From positions 310,001 to 374,000 of the forward strand of contig NZ_QUBR01000002.1 of assembly GCF_003586285.1 (NCBI RefSeq): 64,000 nucleotides of DNA. Reading direction: 5' to 3'. The DNA is from Aeromicrobium endophyticum (GTDB taxonomy: Bacteria; Actinomycetota; Actinomycetes; Propionibacteriales; Nocardioidaceae). The first letter of the stretch is position 1; every line of letters starts with the position of its first letter. Shown here one piece after another: positions 53,578-62,208 of this stretch. Below the pieces are notes generated by a model, which saw nothing but the letters and a program-made list of their open reading frames with translations, searched no databases and was not told where the DNA came from. The translations under genes were made by a program, and so were the position numbers.

Positions 53578-54651
53578 TCAGCCGGCTGACCGGGCGACCG
53601 CTGCCGGACGCTTGGAGCCTGGCATCTCGAGCAGCCACCTGGCGCCCACCTGGCGCACGATCCGCTCGAGCAGCAGGCAGACCGCGATCAGCACCCCGGT
53701 CAGCACGACGGGCTCGAGCGCCGCGACCAGCGCGGTACGTGGCTCCAGCACGGCGAGAGGGCCGCGCAGCAGACGATCGGCCACCGCCAGCAGCGGCAGG
53801 TGCATGACGTACACCGGCAGGGTGCGCCTGCCCAGCCCGCTCAGGGCACGGGTGGTCCGCGTCAGGTGGCGCGCGACCATCACGGCCGCGACGACGCCGA
53901 CGGCGATGGCCAGCACCGACACCGCCGGCCAGACGCCCGGCCAGCGCTGCGCGCCGAGAGCTGCCATGGCGGCCAGGGCCGCGACGTAGGCCGTGCAGGT
54001 CGCCACCAGGCGTCGCACCGACGAGGCCGAGGCGAATGACTCGATGGCCGGGCGAAGCCGCAGCCCGGCGAGGAAGAACACGAGGTTCTGGTAGACCTGC
54101 CCGCGATTGCTGACGACGGGCAGCAGGTCGGCCGCCGCGACCGCTGAGAGCACCATTGCCGCCGTCAGGAGCCATGCGGTCGGGACGCGCCGCGTCGCGC
54201 GGGCGATCGCGAAGTATGCCGCGAGGGCGAACAGGTACCAGAGGTTGGTCGGGCTGATCGTCAGCTGTTCCAGCAGGTCGCCGGCGCTGCGGGCGCGGGC
54301 CGTGTCGAACGTCGGCGTCCACCACATCACCGCGGTGTGGATCAGCAGCCACACCGCGTACAGGTAGAAGAAGCCCGCCACCCGCGTGCGGGTCAGCACG
54401 GGCCAGGGGCGCGCGACCACGCCGACGGCGAACAGTCCCGAGATCGTGAAGAACAGCGGCATCCGCAGGGGCAGCAGCTGCTCGCCGAGCGTGCCCCACG
54501 CGGCCGACCACGGGACCGACGTGTCCCAGTCGATCCGCTGGTAGTGCTTGGTGACGACGTGCCACAGCACGACCAGGACGATGCAGACGCCCTTGGCGAC
54601 GTCGGGCCACGTCTCGCGGCGGGTCGGTGGAACGGCAGCGGTGGTGACCAT
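53578..54651 (-). CDS. acyltransferase-3 family membrane protein
   Basis: A 357-aa membrane protein with about ten helices. The family start (RRETWPDVAKGVCIVLVVLWHVV, conserved His at residue ~27) and LPLRMPLFFTISGLFA match the acyltransferase 3/OafA type, which O-acetylates sugars or transfers succinyl groups on cell-surface glycans. The substrate is unknown. Converges with ppk2, with 3 nt between stops. Confidence 0.87.
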   Translation of the reverse strand: MVTTAAVPPTRRETWPDVAKGVCIVLVVLWHVVTKHYQRIDWDTSVPWSAAWGTLGEQLLPLRMPLFFTISGLFAVGVVARPWPVLTRTRVAGFFYLYAVWLLIHTAVMWWTPTFDTARARSAGDLLEQLTISPTNLWYLFALAAYFAIARATRRVPTAWLLTAAMVLSAVAAADLLPVVSNRGQVYQNLVFFLAGLRLRPAIESFASASSVRRLVATCTAYVAALAAMAALGAQRWPGVWPAVSVLAIAVGVVAAVMVARHLTRTTRALSGLGRRTLPVYVMHLPLLAVADRLLRGPLAVLEPRTALVAALEPVVLTGVLIAVCLLLERIVRQVGARWLLEMPGSKRPAAVARSAG

Positions 54652-54716
54652 GCCTCGACGCTAGGCAGCCGGCGGACGTCCGACATCCACCTGCGGGGCC
54701 GATCCCCGCACCGGAA

Positions 54717-54756
54717 GGACCGGGCACCTCCGCCTCAGGGAGGAGGTGCCCGGTCC
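54717..54756 (-). terminator. terminator of the sulfite-reduction operon
   Basis: A 15-bp perfect stem (GGACCGGGCACCTCC at 54717-54731 with 54742-54756) and a 10-nt loop, 26 nt after the CbiX-type gene stop. Confidence 0.85.
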
Positions 54757-54782
54757 GGGGTCGACCGATCAGGTGCGGTGCG

Positions 54783-55541
54783 TCAGGCGAACAGTGCCTC
54801 GAGCGGAACGAGGTCGACCGCGCCGACCGCGTAGCGAGCGAGGATCACGCGGGCGACCTCGACGTCGACGCCCAGGGGCTCGGCGACGGCGACCGCTCCA
54901 GCCTCGTACGCCAGCTCGGCGACCCGGTCGGGCAGCACGCCCGGCGCGAGGAACAGCTGGCCCACCGCGATGTGACGACGTCCGTCGGCGCGGTGCTGGC
55001 GGACGGCCTCGCCCGCGGCCGGCGGGACGCTCGACGCGAAGGCGGCGATCGTCGGGAGCCGGTGGTGGGAACCCCACGCACGAGCCGCGCGGGAGATCGC
55101 CGCGTTGGCGATGGGGTCGGACGAGCCGGCCCCGGCCAGCACGAGCGCGTCGAGCTCGCGCACGCGGTGCTTCGACAACGCCTCGCGCAGGCGCTTGTCG
55201 AGCACGTGGAAGAACGCGGCCTCGATGCCGAGGACGTTCGTGGCGTGCACCTTGATGCCGTCGTGACGGGCCATGGCCGCGGCGACGACCTGGGGGACGT
55301 CGACTTTGGCGTGGTACGCCTCGCTGAGCAGCAGAGGCACGACGACGATCTCCTGGTGGCCCTCGGCCACGAGCTGGTCGACGGCCTCGTCGAAGGCCGG
55401 ACCGACGTGGTCGAGGAATGCCGGCGCCACACGCAGGTCGGGGCGCATGCACGCGACCATCTCCGTGAGGGCTGTGATGGTGGCGGCGGAACGGGGATCC
55501 GTGCTGCCGTGCGCAAGAGCGATGAGTGCTGGTGCGGTCAT
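54783..55541 (-). CDS. sirohydrochlorin chelatase (CbiX-type)
   Basis: A 252-aa two-domain class II chelatase. Metal-binding His in LIALAHGSTDPRS (near residue 11) and in LLLSEAYHAKVDVPQVV (near 78); second half repeats the fold (LVLAGAGSSDPIANAAISR, LFLAPGVLPDRVAELAYEAG). It inserts iron (or cobalt) into sirohydrochlorin, which fits its place after sulfite reductase, a sirohaem enzyme. 34 nt after the 53-aa protein stop. Confidence 0.9.
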   Translation of the reverse strand: MTAPALIALAHGSTDPRSAATITALTEMVACMRPDLRVAPAFLDHVGPAFDEAVDQLVAEGHQEIVVVPLLLSEAYHAKVDVPQVVAAAMARHDGIKVHATNVLGIEAAFFHVLDKRLREALSKHRVRELDALVLAGAGSSDPIANAAISRAARAWGSHHRLPTIAAFASSVPPAAGEAVRQHRADGRRHIAVGQLFLAPGVLPDRVAELAYEAGAVAVAEPLGVDVEVARVILARYAVGAVDLVPLEALFA

Positions 55542-55575
55542 GATGCGTGCCTCCTTCCAGGGGGTGGTGCTGTGA

Positions 55576-55737
55576 TCAATGGGTGGTCAGGTCGGTGGGG
55601 GAGAGCTGGCCGATGAAGCCGAGCCGGAACGCCCTCAAGCAGGAGCGACACTCCCACTCCCCGTGCTTCTCGCCGTGCGGGCGCAGGCTGTCGTCGGCGC
55701 AGTAGGGGCAGTGGAACGGGACGGCGCGAGCACTCAA
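55576..55737 (-). CDS. 53-aa four-cysteine protein of the sulfite operon
   Basis: A tiny protein with TTG start overlapping the sir stop (TTGA). Sequence: MSARAVPFHCPYCADDSLRP then HGEKHGEWECRSCLRAFRLG then FIGQLSPTDLTTH. Two CxxC pairs (C10/C13, C30/C33) form a zinc- or Fe-S-ribbon. Such small ribbon proteins recur right after actinobacterial sulfite reductase genes; their role is unknown, perhaps in sirohaem or electron transfer. Too short for routine gene calls. Confidence 0.8.
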   Translation of the reverse strand: MSARAVPFHCPYCADDSLRPHGEKHGEWECRSCLRAFRLGFIGQLSPTDLTTH

Positions 55738-57419
55738 CGCAGTGCCTCCTCGTCGGCGCGGGCAACCCAGCGGGCGAACGACTCGTCGCCGTCCCGCTCG
55801 CTCAGGTAGGTCTTCGAGAGCTTCTCGACGTACTCGGGCAGGTGCTCGCCGGTCACCTTGTGCTGGCGCAGCTTGCGACCGAAGCCGGCCTCGAGGCCCA
55901 AGGCGCCGCCCAGGTGCACCTGGAAGCCCTCGACGGTGTTGCCGTGCTCGTCCAGCACGAGCATGCCCTTGAGGCCGATGTCGGCGGTCTGGATGCGCGC
56001 GCACGAGTTGGGGCAGCCGTTGACGTTGACCGTGATGGGGGTGTCGAGCTCGGGCACCCGCTGCTCGAGCTCGTCGATCAGGGTCCGCGCGGTGTCCTTG
56101 GTGTTGACGATCGCGAGCTTGCAGTACTCGATGCCGGTGCAGGCCATCGTGTTGCGACGCCACTGCGACGGCCGCGCGTGCAGCCCGATCTCGTCGAGGG
56201 CCGCGACCAGCGACTCGACCTTGTCCTCGGCGATGTCGAGCACGACGAGCTTCTGCATGGGCGTCGTGCGGACGCGGTCGCTGCCGTGGGCCTCGACGAT
56301 GTCGGCGACCTGGTTGAGCAGGGTGCCCGAGATGCGTCCGACCGTTGCTGCGACGCCCACGTAGAACTTGCCGTCGTTCTGAGGGAAGACGCCGACGTGG
56401 TCGGCCGGCGTCTCGGGGGCCGGGGGAGCGTCGAGGTCGACGAGCTTGCGCTCCAGGTACTCGGTCTCGAGCACCTCGCGGAACTTCTCGATGCCCCAGT
56501 CGGCGACCAGGAACTTCAGCCGGGCGCGGGTGCGGAGGCGGCGGTAGCCGTAGTCGCGGAAGATGCTGACGACGCCCTTCCAGACCTCGGGCACCTCGTC
56601 GATCGGCACCCAGACGCCGACGCGCTGCGCCAGCATCGGGTTGGTCGACAGCCCGCCGCCGACCCAGAGGTCGAAGCCCGGGCCGTGCTCGGGGTGCACC
56701 GCGCCGGTGAAGGCGATGTCGTTGATCTGCGGGACAACGTCGTGGTCGGGGTTGCCGCTGATCGCCGACTTGAACTTGCGGGGCAGGTTGCTGAACGCGC
56801 GGTCGCCGATGAAGGTCGACTCGATGGCGTCGACGGCCGGCGTGCCGTCGATGATCTCGTCGGCGGAGATGCCGGCGACGGGGGAGCCGAGGATGACCCG
56901 GGGGCAGTCTCCGCACGCCTCCTGCGTGGAGAGCCCGACGGCCTCGAGGCGGTTCCAGATCGTGGGCACGTCGCGGACGTCGATCCAGTGGTACTGGACG
57001 TTCTGGCGATCGGTGAGGTCGGCGGTGTCGCGAGCGAACTCGACCGAGATGTCGGCGACGGTGCGCAGCTGCTCGAGGCTGAGCTGTCCGCCGTCGATGC
57101 GCACGCGCATCATGAACCGGTCGGCGTCCAGCTCTTCCGGCTCGAGCGTCGCGGTCTTGCCGCCGTCGATGCCCTCCTTGCGCTGCGTGTAGAGCCCCCA
57201 CCAGCGGAACCGGCCGCGCAGATCGCCGCCGTCGATCGACTCGAAGCCGTGGTGCGCGTAGATGTTCTCGATGCGGGCCCGCACGTTGAGCGGGTTGTCG
57301 TCCTTCTTGGACTGCTCGTTGGCGTTGAGCGGCTCGCGGTAGCCCAGCGCCCACTGGCCCTCGCCGCGCTTGGGGCGCGGGCGACGGGCGGGGGTGTCGG
57401 TACCGGGTGCTGAAGCCAT
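55734..57419 (-). CDS. sir: ferredoxin-dependent sulfite reductase
   Basis: A 561-aa sirohaem/[4Fe-4S] enzyme reducing sulfite to sulfide for cysteine synthesis. Cluster cysteines in ACTGIEYCKLAIVNTK and NGCPNSCARIQTADIGLKG. The RWWGLYTQRKEG Tyr and the ACGDCPRVILGSPVAG Cys correspond to the Tyr-Cys pair described for M. tuberculosis SirA, favouring sulfite over nitrite. AAGGGA precedes the ATG. First structural gene of an operon with the 53-aa protein and CbiX, headed by a leader peptide. Confidence 0.94.
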   Translation of the reverse strand: MASAPGTDTPARRPRPKRGEGQWALGYREPLNANEQSKKDDNPLNVRARIENIYAHHGFESIDGGDLRGRFRWWGLYTQRKEGIDGGKTATLEPEELDADRFMMRVRIDGGQLSLEQLRTVADISVEFARDTADLTDRQNVQYHWIDVRDVPTIWNRLEAVGLSTQEACGDCPRVILGSPVAGISADEIIDGTPAVDAIESTFIGDRAFSNLPRKFKSAISGNPDHDVVPQINDIAFTGAVHPEHGPGFDLWVGGGLSTNPMLAQRVGVWVPIDEVPEVWKGVVSIFRDYGYRRLRTRARLKFLVADWGIEKFREVLETEYLERKLVDLDAPPAPETPADHVGVFPQNDGKFYVGVAATVGRISGTLLNQVADIVEAHGSDRVRTTPMQKLVVLDIAEDKVESLVAALDEIGLHARPSQWRRNTMACTGIEYCKLAIVNTKDTARTLIDELEQRVPELDTPITVNVNGCPNSCARIQTADIGLKGMLVLDEHGNTVEGFQVHLGGALGLEAGFGRKLRQHKVTGEHLPEYVEKLSKTYLSERDGDESFARWVARADEEALR

Positions 57420-57536
57420 GAGAGTCCCTTGGGGCAGGGCACACGGCGACCAGGACAGGCTCGTCACGGTGGTCGCCGCGCGCCTGGATTGATTCGACGG
57501 ATGGTGCTCGAGATCAGTGCAGAGGTCGCGCGTTGA
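57420..57536 (-). promoter_or_regulatory. leader between the MMCR peptide and sir
   Basis: 117 nt with no gene between the leader peptide stop and sir. It would hold any attenuator that depends on ribosomes pausing at the Cys codon. No obvious strong terminator hairpin was seen by eye; folding was not computed. Confidence 0.35.
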
Positions 57537-57617
57537 TCAGCGACACATCATGTTGCGGGCGCGACCGAGGTCGACGTGAAGTCGTCCCACGAGCCAGAGG
57601 GTCTGCGCCGAAAGCAT
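57537..57617 (-). CDS. sulfur-metabolism leader peptide ending MMCR
   Basis: A 26-aa reading frame, MLSAQTLWLVGRLHVDLGRA followed by RNMMCR, 117 nt before sir. The RLHVDL block and C-terminal MMCR match leader peptides found upstream of sulfur-assimilation genes in many actinobacteria. Its penultimate codon is Cys, so translation can sense cysteine supply. Regulatory role inferred from the position and pattern. Confidence 0.78.
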   Translation of the reverse strand: MLSAQTLWLVGRLHVDLGRARNMMCR

Positions 57618-57741
57618 GTGTTCAGTCTGCTGACGACGATCGTCCACGACAAGCAGCGGTCTCGCGATATGGGACGCCTGTCCACATGGTGAACTCCGGT
57701 ACCGGTATCACGGTAAAAAGGGATGGCTGTTGTGGGCGGGG

Positions 57742-58368
57742 TCACGACCTCGGCACGAGCAGCGAGACGGCGTAGGCGCCGACCACGGCTCCGGCCATGG
57801 CTGCGCCAGCTGCCACCAGGGCGACGTCCCAGGGCAGGATGCCCGCCGTGGCCAGGCCCATCACAGCGGCGGGCTGGAAGGCCGTCAGCAGTCCGAGGGG
57901 GAGTGCGGCACCTCCGACGAGCACGGGCACGGCTGCCGTGGCCTCGGGCCCGCCGGCGTCGATCGCGAGCGTCGTCCACGCCACGATGAGGCCGACGACG
58001 GCGGATCCCGCGCCGGCGAGCACGAGGCCGGGCGCGCTGAGCACCAGCGTGTCGCCCAGCTGGTCCTCGAGCCCCATCGCGGCGAGCCCGCCGAGGACGC
58101 CCCCCACCAGGTGAGCGGCGATCTCGGGCAGCAGGGTCGACCACGGTCGCCGGCCGACGGCCGCCAGGGTCACCGAAGCGGCAGGGTTGGCAAGACCGAG
58201 CGCCGACTCGTCGTCGGAGGAGTGCAGCTGGGCGTACCAGGTGAGCAGGGCCGCGACGGCCGCGACGGCGACGACGGCGAGCGTCGCCTCGGCCGCCCTC
58301 AGCGCCATCGCGGCGACGAGCGTCGTCAGCGCGGACATCAGCCCGGCGACGACCAGGCGCCGACCCAT
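57742..58368 (-). CDS. aquaporin-like membrane protein with degenerate second NPA
   Basis: A 208-aa hydrophobic protein of MIP length. The first half-box is intact: LGLANPAASVTLAAVGRRPWSTLLPEIAAHLVGGVLGGL (NPA at 61-63). The second is changed: LTAFQPAAVMGL (QPA at 165-167), without the usual NPAR arginine. Six helices fit. Possibly a channel with altered selectivity or an inactive scaffold. No promoter assigned. Confidence 0.6.
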   Translation of the reverse strand: MGRRLVVAGLMSALTTLVAAMALRAAEATLAVVAVAAVAALLTWYAQLHSSDDESALGLANPAASVTLAAVGRRPWSTLLPEIAAHLVGGVLGGLAAMGLEDQLGDTLVLSAPGLVLAGAGSAVVGLIVAWTTLAIDAGGPEATAAVPVLVGGAALPLGLLTAFQPAAVMGLATAGILPWDVALVAAGAAMAGAVVGAYAVSLLVPRS

Positions 58369-58447
58369 CAGGACCTCGATCGCGACGTCGTGCGCGCCCG
58401 GTCACCGGATGCGTCGTGAGGGGGATGCATGTCGCTACGGTAGAGCC

Positions 58448-59338
58448 ATGGTGGCGCAACCGGTAGGCCGACCGCGCCTCGCCGAGCTGATGAGCAGGCT
58501 GGTCGCCCGCACCGTCAGCAGCTGCCTGCGCTACCGGGTCACGGGCCTGGCGGCCGAGGCCGCGTTCTTCGCGATCCTGTCGCTGCCACCGCTGGTGTTC
58601 GGCCTCGCCGGCACGATCGGCTTCATCGCCGAGCGTTACGACGTCGCCCAGGTCGACGTGCTGAAGGACCGGATCATCGAGCTGTCGTCGAAGGCCCTGA
58701 CCGACAGCACCGTCGACAAGGTGATCGCACCGACCCTCGACGAGGTGCTCGGATCGGGACGCATCGACGTCATCTCGATCGGCTTCGTGCTCGCCCTGTG
58801 GTCGGGGTCGCGAGCCCTCAACGTCTTCCTCGACACGATCTCGATCATCTACGGGATGGGCGGGCAGCGCGGCATCGTCAAGACGCGCGCCCTGTCGTTC
58901 TCGCTGTACATCGCGGCGCTCCTGGTGGGCATCGTGCTGGTGCCGCTCGTGCTGATCGGGCCCGAGCTGGCGGCGGACATCCTCTCCGACCGGTGGGCGT
59001 TCCTGCGCATGTTCTACTGGCCGGCCGTGCTGGTGCTGTCGCTCGGCTTCTTGACGACCCTCTACCACCTGGCCGTTCCCGTGCGGCAGAAGTGGCGGTC
59101 GGGTCTGCCGGGTGCGGCGTTCACCTTGGTGCTGTGGATCCTCGGCAGCTACTTCGTGCGCTGGGCGCTCGGCTTCTCGACCGGCGGCATGTCGATCTAC
59201 GGGCCGTTGGCCGCCCCGATCGCGGTGCTGCTGTGGCTGTACGTGCTGTCGATCTCGGTGCTGATCGGCGCTGCCATCAACGCTGCGGTGGAGGCAGGCG
59301 TCGACGACTCGCGGTGGGGTGCCGAACCGGTCGCCTGA
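58448..59338 (+). CDS. YihY/UPF0761 family membrane protein
   Basis: A 296-aa membrane protein with six helices. The family start (CLRYRVTGLAAEAAFFAILSLPPLVFGLAGTIGFI) and later LWSGSRALNVFLDTISIIYGM, VPVRQKWRSGLPGAAFTLVLWILGSYFVRWAL and YGPLAAPIAVLLWLYVLSISVLIGAAINA are clear. Formerly called BrkB/RNase BN. Function unknown. Convergent with the DUF222 protein gene. Confidence 0.9.
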   Translation: MVAQPVGRPRLAELMSRLVARTVSSCLRYRVTGLAAEAAFFAILSLPPLVFGLAGTIGFIAERYDVAQVDVLKDRIIELSSKALTDSTVDKVIAPTLDEVLGSGRIDVISIGFVLALWSGSRALNVFLDTISIIYGMGGQRGIVKTRALSFSLYIAALLVGIVLVPLVLIGPELAADILSDRWAFLRMFYWPAVLVLSLGFLTTLYHLAVPVRQKWRSGLPGAAFTLVLWILGSYFVRWALGFSTGGMSIYGPLAAPIAVLLWLYVLSISVLIGAAINAAVEAGVDDSRWGAEPVA

Positions 59339-59367
59339 GCGCACGTGTGCCATGAGTGACTGTGGCG

Positions 59368-60705
59368 TCATGGCCGCCAGCGATGGTTCGCGAGCCACGC
59401 CGTGGTGCCTGCCCGGCGGTACTGGATGTGGCCGTCCGGACCTTCGCGCAGCTGCCAGTCGTCGGCGTGCACCACGCGATGGTGGTGCGGACAGATCAGC
59501 ACGCCGTCGTCCAGGGTGGTGGTGCCACCGTGCGACCAAGGAGATCGCCAGTGGTGTGCCTCGGTCTGCTCGGGGGGTCTGTCGCACCCGGGGAAGGTGC
59601 AGCCGCCGTCTCGTCGGGCGAGGGCCTGCTTCTGCGCTCGGGTGAAGAGCCGCTGCTCGTGCCCGTGGTCGAGCGGGACCGGCCTGCCTCCGAAGACCTG
59701 AGGGATGATGCCCAAGGAGCACGCCATCAGCCGCGCCTGCGAGGCACTGATGCGTGTGCCGGTCGAGAGCGTCGCCGCCTTGACTCCCTCGGTGAGCGTC
59801 GCCAGGTCGAGGTGGACCATGAGGGTCGCGCCGAAGCCGGAGCGGCCGGGCAGCAGGTTGCCGGGCAGGTGACCGCACAGCTCGGCGAAGGCCATGCCGA
59901 GGCGGGTGCGGTGGTCGAGGTCGCGGTCGTACACCGACGTGGTCGCCTCGGGGGCCGCCGCTCCCGGGTGGTCGCGCAGATGGTCTCGCTTGGGGGCGCA
60001 GATCGCCTTGAGCGCCGTCTCGAGCATGTCGGCCTGGGCGTCGGGGATCGTGAACCCGCCGCTGGTGGTGCCGTCGGCGTTGGGACGCATCCAGAACGTC
60101 GATGCGGCCCAGGACTTCTTCTCGGTGGCCTCGAGGTCGTCGTTCTCGGAGCGGTCGACCCCGGGCTCGGGCGTGAACTGATCGGCGATGCGCTTGGACC
60201 GCGTGCGCAGGTCTTTGAGCGAGAGCCGGCCGGCATCGCCGATCAGCGTGTCTTCGCACGCCTGGCGGTCGTCGGCCGAGACGTCGTCAGGCAGGCCGCT
60301 GATCGCGCCCGCGATGATGTCCGCCTGGGCGGCACCGATCTGACCGGCCGCCAGCGCGTCCTGGGTGCTGGGTGCCGCACCGAGCTTATTGCCCCGGTGC
60401 ACCATCGCGTCCGCTGCTCGTCGATCGCCGCCGAACGCGCCGGCGAGCAGGTCTCCGGTCGAGGTGGCACCAGCGCTCTTGGCGACCCCCGAGGCGTCCA
60501 GCGCACGGGTCGCGGCCATCAGGTGAGCCTTGACGCGGGCCTCGACACGCATCAGTCGCTCGGCAGCAGATCGCAGGGCGTCGGGCTCGAGCCCTGGCCA
60601 GCCGTCGATCGGCATCTGGTCGAGAGCCGCTTCAAGCGCTGCGACCCCACCCACCAGCGGGTGGGGGAGCTGCTCGACGACGGCGAGGGACACGAGGACA
60701 TCCAA
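59368..60705 (-). CDS. DUF222/13E12-repeat HNH endonuclease-like protein
   Basis: A 445-aa protein. DUF222 covers about residues 40-330; the C-terminal HNH motif is complete (CTFPGCDRPPEQTEAHHWRSPWSHGGTTTLDDGVLICPHHHRVVHADDW). Actinobacterial genomes carry many copies. Some M. tuberculosis 13E12 proteins belong to the LexA regulon, and a perfect LexA box lies upstream here. Start taken as TTG 60705; GTG at 60693 is an alternative. Likely a DNA nuclease used in damage response, not shown. Confidence 0.85.
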   Translation of the reverse strand: MDVLVSLAVVEQLPHPLVGGVAALEAALDQMPIDGWPGLEPDALRSAAERLMRVEARVKAHLMAATRALDASGVAKSAGATSTGDLLAGAFGGDRRAADAMVHRGNKLGAAPSTQDALAAGQIGAAQADIIAGAISGLPDDVSADDRQACEDTLIGDAGRLSLKDLRTRSKRIADQFTPEPGVDRSENDDLEATEKKSWAASTFWMRPNADGTTSGGFTIPDAQADMLETALKAICAPKRDHLRDHPGAAAPEATTSVYDRDLDHRTRLGMAFAELCGHLPGNLLPGRSGFGATLMVHLDLATLTEGVKAATLSTGTRISASQARLMACSLGIIPQVFGGRPVPLDHGHEQRLFTRAQKQALARRDGGCTFPGCDRPPEQTEAHHWRSPWSHGGTTTLDDGVLICPHHHRVVHADDWQLREGPDGHIQYRRAGTTAWLANHRWRP

Positions 60706-61200
60706 AGGAGGTAGGTCGTCGCACCCCTGGCCCCGTCAGGTGTGTCGCATCCAGGGTCGATGCGTCACGGACCGGTCATGTTCGATCGCTCGTCGGATCT
60801 CGTGTCACGTCGAGGGTTCCCGCGTCTTCTTCGCCCTCGTGATGATCATTATGCCGTATTTCGAGCGTCGTGTCGAACAGGTGTTCGAATGATGAGACGC
60901 TGCTCAGACCGGCGAACACGTGACGGAGCCCCTCGGCCGGGGTGGGCGGCGGAGGGGCTCGGTCGCGACCGGCGGGCACATGGAGGAAGCCCTGCCGTAT
61001 CGCTGTGCACCGGTCGTGCGTGACCAACCGGCTCGTCTCCGACGCTACGGGCGTCGCGGCACCCGCACCACCAACCACGGGTGAACTCCGACCCAACAAC
61101 GGGGCCGCCCCCGCCCTCCAGGGGAGGTGAGGCGGGGACGGCGTACCGATGGTATCTGGAAGTTGCCCATCGGCGCGAGGTCTCGTGGCCGAGACGACGA
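60706..61200. other. gene-free interval with SOS control region and hairpins
   Basis: About 500 nt with no convincing gene. It holds the LexA box (60873-60888) with its -10, a 9-bp hairpin (60926-60934 with 60952-60960), and a C-rich/G-rich inverted stretch near 61105-61140. The rest shows nothing recognisable. Confidence 0.5.
60848..60888 (-). promoter_or_regulatory. LexA/SOS box overlapping promoter of the DUF222-HNH gene
   Basis: TCGAACAGGTGTTCGA (60873-60888) fits the Gram-positive/actinobacterial LexA consensus TCGAACRNRYGTTCGA at every position. On the minus strand TTCGAC (60877-60872) and CATAAT (60853-60848), 18 nt apart, form a promoter covered by the box. 168 nt upstream of the HNH gene. 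Confidence 0.75.
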
Positions 61201-61230
61201 AAGCCCCGGACTCGTCGGAGTCCGGGGCTT
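61201..61230. terminator. terminator after tRNA-Val(CAC)
   Basis: A 12-bp perfect stem AAGCCCCGGACT / AGTCCGGGGCTT with a 6-nt loop CGTCGG, 8 nt beyond the 3' end of the minus-strand tRNA. Confidence 0.75.
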
Positions 61231-61238
61231 GCCTGCGG

Positions 61239-61310
61239 TGGGCGATACTGGGTTCGAACCAGTGACCTCTTCGGTGTGAACGAAGCGCGCTACCACTGCG
61301 CCAATCGCCC
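61239..61310 (-). tRNA. tRNA-Val (anticodon CAC)
   Basis: A 72-nt cloverleaf: acceptor GGGCGAT pairing ATCGCCC, anticodon stem CTTCG/CGAAG with loop TTCACAC, T-loop GGTTCGAAC. CCA is not encoded. Nearly identical to the tRNA-Val at 62486 except around the anticodon and T arm. Confidence 0.95.
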
Positions 61311-61374
61311 GCTGACGTGCGACAGAAACACTAACCTACGGCCGACGTCCGCCACCAGCGAGGTCGCCGCCTCG

Positions 61375-62208
61375 TCACGGATCGACGTCCTTGGCCGCCT
61401 CGCGGGCCCAGATCTGCTGGGCGCGTCGCGTGACCGGCCCCGGCGCGGGCAGCTCGCGGTCGTCGACCCGCCTGATGGCCTGCACGTCCCGCGTCGTCCC
61501 GACGAGGATGACCTCGTCGGCCGTGCGGAGCACCTCGATGGGGGCGTCCTGCTCGACGACGTCGATCTCGCCGGCGCACCACTGCAGCACCAGAGCGCGG
61601 GTGACGCCCGCGAGCGGCCCGGCACCGAGCGTCGGGGTGATGAGGCGGTCGCCGACGACGTACATCACGTTGGACCCCGTGCCCTCGCACAGCTCGCCAC
61701 GCGTGTTCGGCATGACGGCCTCGGACGCGCCGTAAGCGTGAGCGTGCTCGACCATCAGTGCGTTCTCGGCGTACGACGTCGTCTTGAGGCCGGTGAGCGC
61801 CCCGCGCTCGTTGCGCGGCCACGGCACCGTGACGATGCTCGAGACCGGTGGGGGTCGGTCGCACGGCTCGGCCACGACCGTGTGCGTGAGCGCTCCCGAC
61901 CCCCGCGGGGAGCCGAGCGGCCCGGGGCCGGACGTCACGGTGACGCGGACGCGACCGAAGCCGATCGACTGGCCGTCCATCGTCGCGGCGATGCCGTCGC
62001 GGACGGCGCCGAGGTCGGGGGTTCCGATGCCCAGGCCGGCGGCAGATCGCACAAGACGGTCGAGGTGACGCGTGAGCGCGAACGGTCTGTCGTCCTCGAT
62101 CTTGACGGTCTCGAACACTCCGTCACCCACGATCATGCCGTGATCGAGGACGCTGATCGCCGGTTCGTCCGGGGATTGCAGGAGGCGTCCGTTGACCCAT
62201 GTGCGCAT
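61375..62208 (-). CDS. pabC: aminotransferase class IV, likely aminodeoxychorismate lyase
   Basis: A 277-aa fold-type IV PLP enzyme. PLP Lys in GALTGLKTTSYAENALM (near residue 144); phosphate-binding GVTRALVLQWC; VMPNTRGELCEGTGSNVMYVVGDRLITP. Resembles PabC (4-amino-4-deoxychorismate lyase of folate synthesis), with D-amino-acid or branched-chain transaminases as alternatives. No pabAB neighbour. Confidence 0.82.
   Translation of the reverse strand: MRTWVNGRLLQSPDEPAISVLDHGMIVGDGVFETVKIEDDRPFALTRHLDRLVRSAAGLGIGTPDLGAVRDGIAATMDGQSIGFGRVRVTVTSGPGPLGSPRGSGALTHTVVAEPCDRPPPVSSIVTVPWPRNERGALTGLKTTSYAENALMVEHAHAYGASEAVMPNTRGELCEGTGSNVMYVVGDRLITPTLGAGPLAGVTRALVLQWCAGEIDVVEQDAPIEVLRTADEVILVGTTRDVQAIRRVDDRELPAPGPVTRRAQQIWAREAAKDVDP

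Follow-up and report, generated by a model that had tools for sequence, protein, structure and literature searches.

The locus considered here raises the question of whether a frame of 26 codons, lying ahead of a sulfite reductase gene (sir) in Aeromicrobium endophyticum, is a gene in its own right and, if so, whether it senses cysteine on behalf of sir. The window, by which we mean the whole stretch of 64,000 nucleotides that was analysed, carries both on its minus strand, with 117 nt between the stop codon of the upstream frame (the uORF) and the sir ATG at 57419. We consider it highly likely that the uORF encodes a leader peptide, translated from a leaderless start, through which sulfite reductase is controlled in response to cysteine. 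Comparison of related genomes establishes the gene, its promoter layout, selection on its amino acids, a fixed cysteine position and a codon rule at that cysteine; the features are listed in Table 1.

A preliminary description of this DNA had pointed to a frame of 26 residues with an RLHVDL block and a terminal MMCR, at the distance from sir given above, and all of this is confirmed. It had also set the cysteine codon next to the stop; the cysteine is indeed near the stop but does not adjoin it, the order at the 3' end being Cys (codon 25), Arg (codon 26) and UGA. The following gene was rightly taken for a sulfite reductase, as the Pfam domains PF01077 and PF03460 in its product attest, and the statement that the leader has no obvious terminator agrees with the finding of 0 intrinsic terminator-like sites in 57380-57760.

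Table 1. Features of the sir leader and its surroundings, in window coordinates.
Feature	Position	Strand	Basis
Leader peptide gene, putatively leaderless, 26 codons and UGA, MLSAQTLWLVGRLHVDLGRARNMMCR	57537..57617	-	Frame, genus conservation, dN/dS
Cys25 codon UGU, putative sensing codon, motif Asp plus nine residues	57543..57545	-	Alignment, codon counts
sir/nirA-type sulfite reductase, 561 aa	55734..57419	-	Pfam PF01077 and PF03460
CbiX-type sirohydrochlorin chelatase	54783..55541	-	Pfam PF01903
Candidate -10 element CAGACT, 6 nt 5' of ATG	57624..57629	-	NANNNT hexamer in 47/47 genus leaders
Candidate -35 element TTGTCG, spacing 17	57647..57652	-	TTG at spacing 16-18 in 47/47
Block i CGCGCGACCT, after uORF stop	57523..57532	-	With GUCGC of Cys25-Arg26 can pair block ii
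Block ii AGGCGCGCGGCGACC	57471..57485	-	Can pair block i or block iii
Block iii GGTCGCCGTGTGCC	57438..57451	-	Can pair block ii or sir start region
Possible hairpin over sir Shine-Dalgarno (57426-57430) and AUG	57415..57447	-	Alignment pairing counts

The leader gene and its predicted transcript start

The genus was represented by 49 genomes, of which 47 gave a match to sir, the other two being 71% and 88% complete. A peptide of the MLSAQTLWLVGRLHVDLGRARNMMCR type precedes sir in 47/47 of these, two copies (L046 and L047) being one residue shorter at the end than the rest. Among 37 distinct genus uORFs, dN/dS is 0.21 over codons 8-26 (0.30 for the entire frame), as against 2.0 and 2.2 in the two shifted frames. 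It is the universal presence in the genus together with this in-frame constraint that leads us to conclude, from sequence comparison, that the uORF is a real gene. In the 45 full-length copies the residues L9, V10, R12, H14, V15, D16, L17, R19 and C25 are invariant, and synonymous changes are most frequent at R12, V15, L17 and R19; the N-terminus varies. There is a single cysteine in 46/47 genus peptides, the remaining one (L045) having a second that is non-adjacent.

The arrangement upstream of the uORF suggests a promoter. A hexamer of the form NANNNT ends 6-7 nt ahead of the uORF ATG in 47/47 genus leaders (shuffled mean 3.3, maximum 9), and is exactly CAGACT in 32/47; a TTG lies 16-18 nt 5' of that hexamer, again in 47/47 (shuffled mean 2.4, maximum 8). 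A Shine-Dalgarno-like tetramer upstream of the uORF ATG was found in 0/47 genus leaders, or 1/47 if the interval searched is made one base longer; with a broader set of tetramers the count is 1/47 for the uORF versus 47/47 for sir, which has such a tetramer in 31/47 by the strict set. Across the class, 86/89 leaders have an ATG or GTG located 19-31 codons ahead of the cysteine with a -10-like hexamer 6-7 nt upstream of it (shuffled mean 8.3, maximum 16). A consensus scanner for sigma-70 found no site in 57380-57760, because CAGACT deviates from its TATAAT rule. It thus looks as though the uORF transcript starts at the A of its own ATG, that is, it is predicted to be leaderless, a layout absent from the preliminary description. 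A longer version of the frame, of 36 aa from a GTG at 57647, was considered and rejected, since transcription from the conserved promoter should begin at the ATG instead.

On the other side of sir, gene order and strand indicate that the CbiX gene is likely to be part of the sir operon. Between the two, a short frame on the minus strand overlaps the sir end and stops at 55576; its product (CPYC...CRSC) appears zinc-ribbon-like by eye. An Rfam search of 54000-62000, with E up to 1, gave no leader element; its two matches, one to a tRNA and the other to an sRNA below threshold, lie away from the leader.

Spread across the class and the codon of the conserved cysteine

Of 246 genomes of the class that were searched, 194 had sir at threshold, and 101 sir loci from outside the genus were examined (21 from the class search and 80 fetched, hand-picked to cover genera). 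A profile of 17 positions, built from 56 peptides of which 49 come from these same 101 loci, detected relatives of the leader peptide ahead of sir in 89/101. It gave no peptide at the other 12 (L071, L138, L140, L143-L145, L147 and L163-L167), one of which, L071, had just 151 nt of upstream sequence. Regular-expression searches had missed 48 or 49 of the 101 loci, and the profile recovered 37/49. The core shared across the class is LVxRRHVDLxRxxSxxC, in which the cysteine stands nine residues after the aspartate (D+9) in 87/89 leaders, L122 and L146 deviating; in the genus it does so in 47/47. Cysteine-sensing leaderless leaders, if our reading is correct, thereby extend from mycobacteria to most actinomycete sir loci in this sample.

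The codon used for the D+9 cysteine is UGU in 47/47 genus leaders and in 86/87 class leaders (133/134 combined); L102 is the sole class leader with UGC. For comparison, sir genes themselves use UGU for 28/380 cysteine codons, or 7.4%, in 54 frames. The UGU rule at the putative sensing cysteine is new here, and no mention of it, or explanation for it, was found in the limited library of literature searched.

The same rule holds in other leaders of this kind. At G000:C1:1900194-1900271 (+) this genome has a second leaderless-type cysteine leader, MFRTTHLTRRRAVDNCRTRSSLCRTR (L049/L170), 5' of genes for a DUF4395 protein and a rhodanese, in which the D+2 cysteine is UGC and the D+9 cysteine UGU. 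This second type is present in 47/49 genus genomes, and the same assignment of codons was observed in 26/26 loci that fitted a regular expression, from 30 returned. The family models NF042934 and NF042933 were also run on 59 genomes; among the matches listed (L199-L256) there are 35 distinct scored places, beside 13 loci without a scorable match and 10 repeats. UGU occurs, among these, in 30 leaders not recognised as preceding sir and in 2 sir leaders, while L199, L219 (which has UGC) and L254 are probable mis-hits, scoring at most 6.1 versus 7.2 for the lowest UGU match. Cysteines outside D+9 are mostly UGC overall, by hand count 21/24 at D+2 and 9/11 at D+7 among the matches listed. They are mixed within the class sir leaders, where the 52 found by regular expression have UGC in 8/9 at D+5 and 7/8 at D+12, and UGU in 5/5 at D+7 and 3/5 at D+10. 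NF042934-type leaders can be numerous, with up to 11 per genome among the matches listed in the 59 genomes (for example in G092, a large actinomycete); such numbers possibly reflect a large ribosome-directed regulon.

A general preference of leaders for T-ending codons is ruled out as the cause of the rule, as the core histidine is mostly CAC (48/50) and the core aspartate mostly GAC (42/52). Differences in tRNA-Cys charging were set aside, since both cysteine codons are read by one tRNA-Cys. That tRNA decodes UGU through a G-U wobble, and we tentatively entertain the possibility that one UGU, nine residues past the aspartate of a tunnel-facing RxHVDL, is the sensor, in place of a simple tally of many cysteine codons, the leader gauging, beyond charging, the wobble decoding of UGU under slowing by the nascent motif. 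Decoding could then depend on ms2i6A37, a sulfur-containing tRNA modification, and the leader could be a gauge of overall sulfur status. The chief alternative to the wobble reading is that UGU may be kept for its pairing with ACA or GAC near the target start. The predicted pairing probability of the codon is 0.97 for the G and 0.88 for the last U in the 47 genus leaders, versus an average of 0.60, and 0.83 and 0.69 in 48 class leaders, versus 0.61; changing UGU to UGC alters the mean ensemble energy little (+0.56 kcal/mol in the genus, -0.06 kcal/mol in the class). In many leaders, for example L084, L087, L114 and L117 (starts guessed), a C or AC comes after the sir Shine-Dalgarno sequence (AGGAC) and could pair with UGUC at the cysteine codon. 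Should UGU prove functional, the choice between synonymous codons would belong to the sensor. The rule and the single-cysteine design are the points that deserve follow-up, and the codon rule is cheap to test.

Proposed mechanism, RNA structure and rival explanations

A cysteine-responsive leader for sir, as the preliminary description had proposed, is the best reading in view of the gene, its leaderless layout and the homologous peptide shared with the mycobacterial uORF; the response to cysteine, the role of the exit tunnel and the direction of the RNA switch are what we infer. With transcription beginning at the A of the AUG, a ribosome would load immediately and translate 24 codons to the single UGU. 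When Cys-tRNA is ample it would complete the uORF and depart, allowing the leader RNA to fold over the sir ribosome-binding site. When Cys-tRNA is scarce it would pause at UGU with LVxRLHVDLGR in the upper part of the exit tunnel, and its body would block the pairing of the uORF end, leaving the sir ribosome-binding site free. In terms of the blocks of Table 1, pairing of i with ii is predicted to release iii, which can then mask the start of sir (off), and pairing of ii with iii to expose that start (on). If Cys25 occupies the A site, the segment R12-L17 would presumably lie at a distance of 7-12 residues from the peptidyl-transferase centre, close to the constriction of the tunnel, which is where arrest peptides act. 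This geometry, the fixed spacing and the selection on amino acids together suggest a contribution of the nascent peptide to the pause, and the design suggests that a single cysteine codon suffices for sensing.

The helices were counted in the 33/47 genus leaders in which blocks ii and iii could be recognised by eye, the other 14 being excluded. Helix ii:iii has 89.1% of cells paired, as compared with 22-56% in slid controls, and the hairpin at the sir start 90.6% as compared with 31-52%. Double changes affect 4 pairs in 14 cells for ii:iii and 3 pairs in 12 cells for the sir hairpin. The numbers of cells exceed those of all 500 shuffles for both helices, but the numbers of pairs are not above chance (reached in 304/500 and 279/500 shuffles, respectively), and the sir hairpin slid by -1 or -2 has equally many double-change cells. 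The compensatory changes come mostly from a single clade, L018-L021. Column 182, within block iii, pairs both with column 144 in block ii and with column 217, which lies in codon 2 of sir, and in this one clade all three are changed with both pairings retained. Helix i:ii is without covariation support, having 1 pair with both sides changed, a number reached in 496/500 shuffles. RNAalifold on all 47 leaders gave helices only within the uORF.

Folding of the leader RNA, a check that had been suggested at the outset, favoured the model across the class but not for the leader in the window. The class set consists of those leaders, 82 of 85 with a guessed sir start, whose spacer is no longer than 190 nt. 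Here, with a ribosome positioned at the cysteine codon, opening of the sir site becomes cheaper by 1.36 kcal/mol, versus 0.63 with shuffled spacers (Wilcoxon p 0.001, relatedness ignored), and 51/82 leaders beat their own shuffled mean. For the window's leader the cost changes from 5.1 to 4.7 kcal/mol, and ii:iii is retained in every ribosome state tried. The effect in the 47 genus leaders is near that of shuffled ones (-0.96 versus -0.65 kcal/mol, and -0.68 versus -0.54 in another run), several, including L028, L029 and L036, having the opposite sign; one further placement run in the genus was without a shuffled control. In the 14 leaders lacking block ii, the ribosome cuts the cost in 14/14, and with shuffled spacers in 13/14; in one of them, L037, shuffled spacers drop more than the real one. 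In L026, L037 and L039 the end of the uORF, GUCGCU, can pair with AGCGAC at or beside the sir Shine-Dalgarno sequence, and in L044 GUUCGU can pair with GCGAAC there, both sides having changed. Class-wide, the energies of duplexes formed by the end of the uORF with positions about the start of sir showed no clear peak. The modelling supports the freeing of the sir ribosome-binding site class-wide, not for the window's own leader, and equilibrium folding was rejected as a demonstration of switching in the latter, given that the genus effect is near the shuffled controls.

Among the other explanations, the one that we find least unlikely, though still doubtful, is Rho-dependent attenuation, in which the naked C-rich spacer after the uORF stop would load Rho, with termination before sir unless a paused ribosome or altered coupling prevented it. 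C exceeds G in the spacer of 47/47 genus leaders (44% C and 26% G, versus 39% and 30% in the initial 200 nt of the match to sir), intrinsic terminators are lacking, as noted above, and Rho is proposed for mycobacterial cysteine leaders in the available text of Seliverstov 2005 (PMC1262725). Against this, a ribosome at Cys25 would cover few nucleotides past the stop and so would not mask the spacer, conserved helices lie over the sir start, and later papers treat the mycobacterial case as attenuation of translation, the available text of one describing a cysteine-dependent attenuation (PMC9031893) and that of another an action on translation (PMC13236596). Slightly less probable in our view is that we are dealing with an arrest peptide, responsive in the exit tunnel to a different sulfur metabolite and not to the level of Cys-tRNA. 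The retention of LVxRxHVDLxR through synonymous changes and the constant cysteine spacing go beyond what a plain starvation codon needs; nevertheless, the near-invariant residue towards the C-terminus is a cysteine, and the extra cysteines of some relatives fit the sensing of Cys-tRNA.

The purifying selection on amino acids would also fit a small protein acting in trans, its place before sir reflecting mere co-transcription. We regard this as very improbable, given the constant position ahead of sir (47/47 genus and 89/101 class loci), the similar short leaders elsewhere, the variable N-terminus and the codon-level constraint at one cysteine. A structured RNA element with an accidental reading frame would account for the conserved leader helices, but is contradicted by the difference in dN/dS between the true and shifted frames and by retention of the peptide core across families, and we give it almost no credence.

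Relationship to known leaders

Work by Canestrari from 2020 is said to describe mycobacterial cysteine-responsive leaderless attenuators as short ORFs, first in their operon, with contiguous cysteine codons near the stop; operon expression reportedly rises on cysteine limitation, when the ribosome stalls and a ribosome-binding site further downstream is released from sequestration. By sequence, a leaderless short ORF standing first in a sir/nirA operon fits the present case; the contiguous cysteine codons are not found, with one cysteine in all but one of the genus peptides. The intrinsic terminator before the gene that typifies a trp-type attenuator is likewise lacking. In the Rhodobacterales, the available text of PMC8632094 describes a cysS uORF (uORFC-8-2 motif) with cysteine codons, for which ribosome-mediated attenuation is proposed; it resembles the present leader in those codons and differs in its intrinsic terminator, tandem cysteines and predominance of UGC.

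Within the actinobacteria, cysteine leaders with no obvious terminators were predicted for Mycobacterium, Propionibacterium and Bifidobacterium (Seliverstov 2005, PMC1262725, as far as the available text goes), and conserved, leaderless, cysteine-enriched small ORFs are described before nirA/Msmeg_4527 and cysA2/Msmeg_5788 in the accessible part of Shell 2015 (PMC4633059). The second leader of this genome is similar in kind to Ms5788A (NF042933, cysA2-type genes), scoring 22.5 bits against a cut-off of 45; it differs from the window peptide in its core, RRAVDNCR, and its target. NF042934, a cis_reg_atten model named 'putative leader peptide', has the same core as the window peptide, which gives 17.7 bits (E 0.002) and stays below the cut-off of 27. 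A search of the window peptide with NF042936 (Ms4527A, cut-off 45 bits) gave no match at E up to 1; two relatives, both of one family, pass it with 58 and 46.4. The NCBI models therefore miss this member in annotation.

The nearest known system is the mycobacterial nirA/Msmeg_4527 uORF. It differs in its cysteine cluster, where the present leader has one cysteine, RLHVDLGR and spacer structures of its own in addition to the lack of an NF042936 match. It is alike in its downstream gene, its leaderless start and a cysteine near the stop, a terminator not being reported in the text available, and the Ms4527A family has a homologous core, LVARRHIDLKRVCSCCC in the genomes passing NF042936. Because the gene, the layout and the peptide correspond in this way, the leader very probably works, by analogy, as a cysteine gauge for sir as in mycobacteria. 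Judged by position and core, it is homologous to the element of mycobacteria, and so belongs, as a diverged member, to a kind already known.
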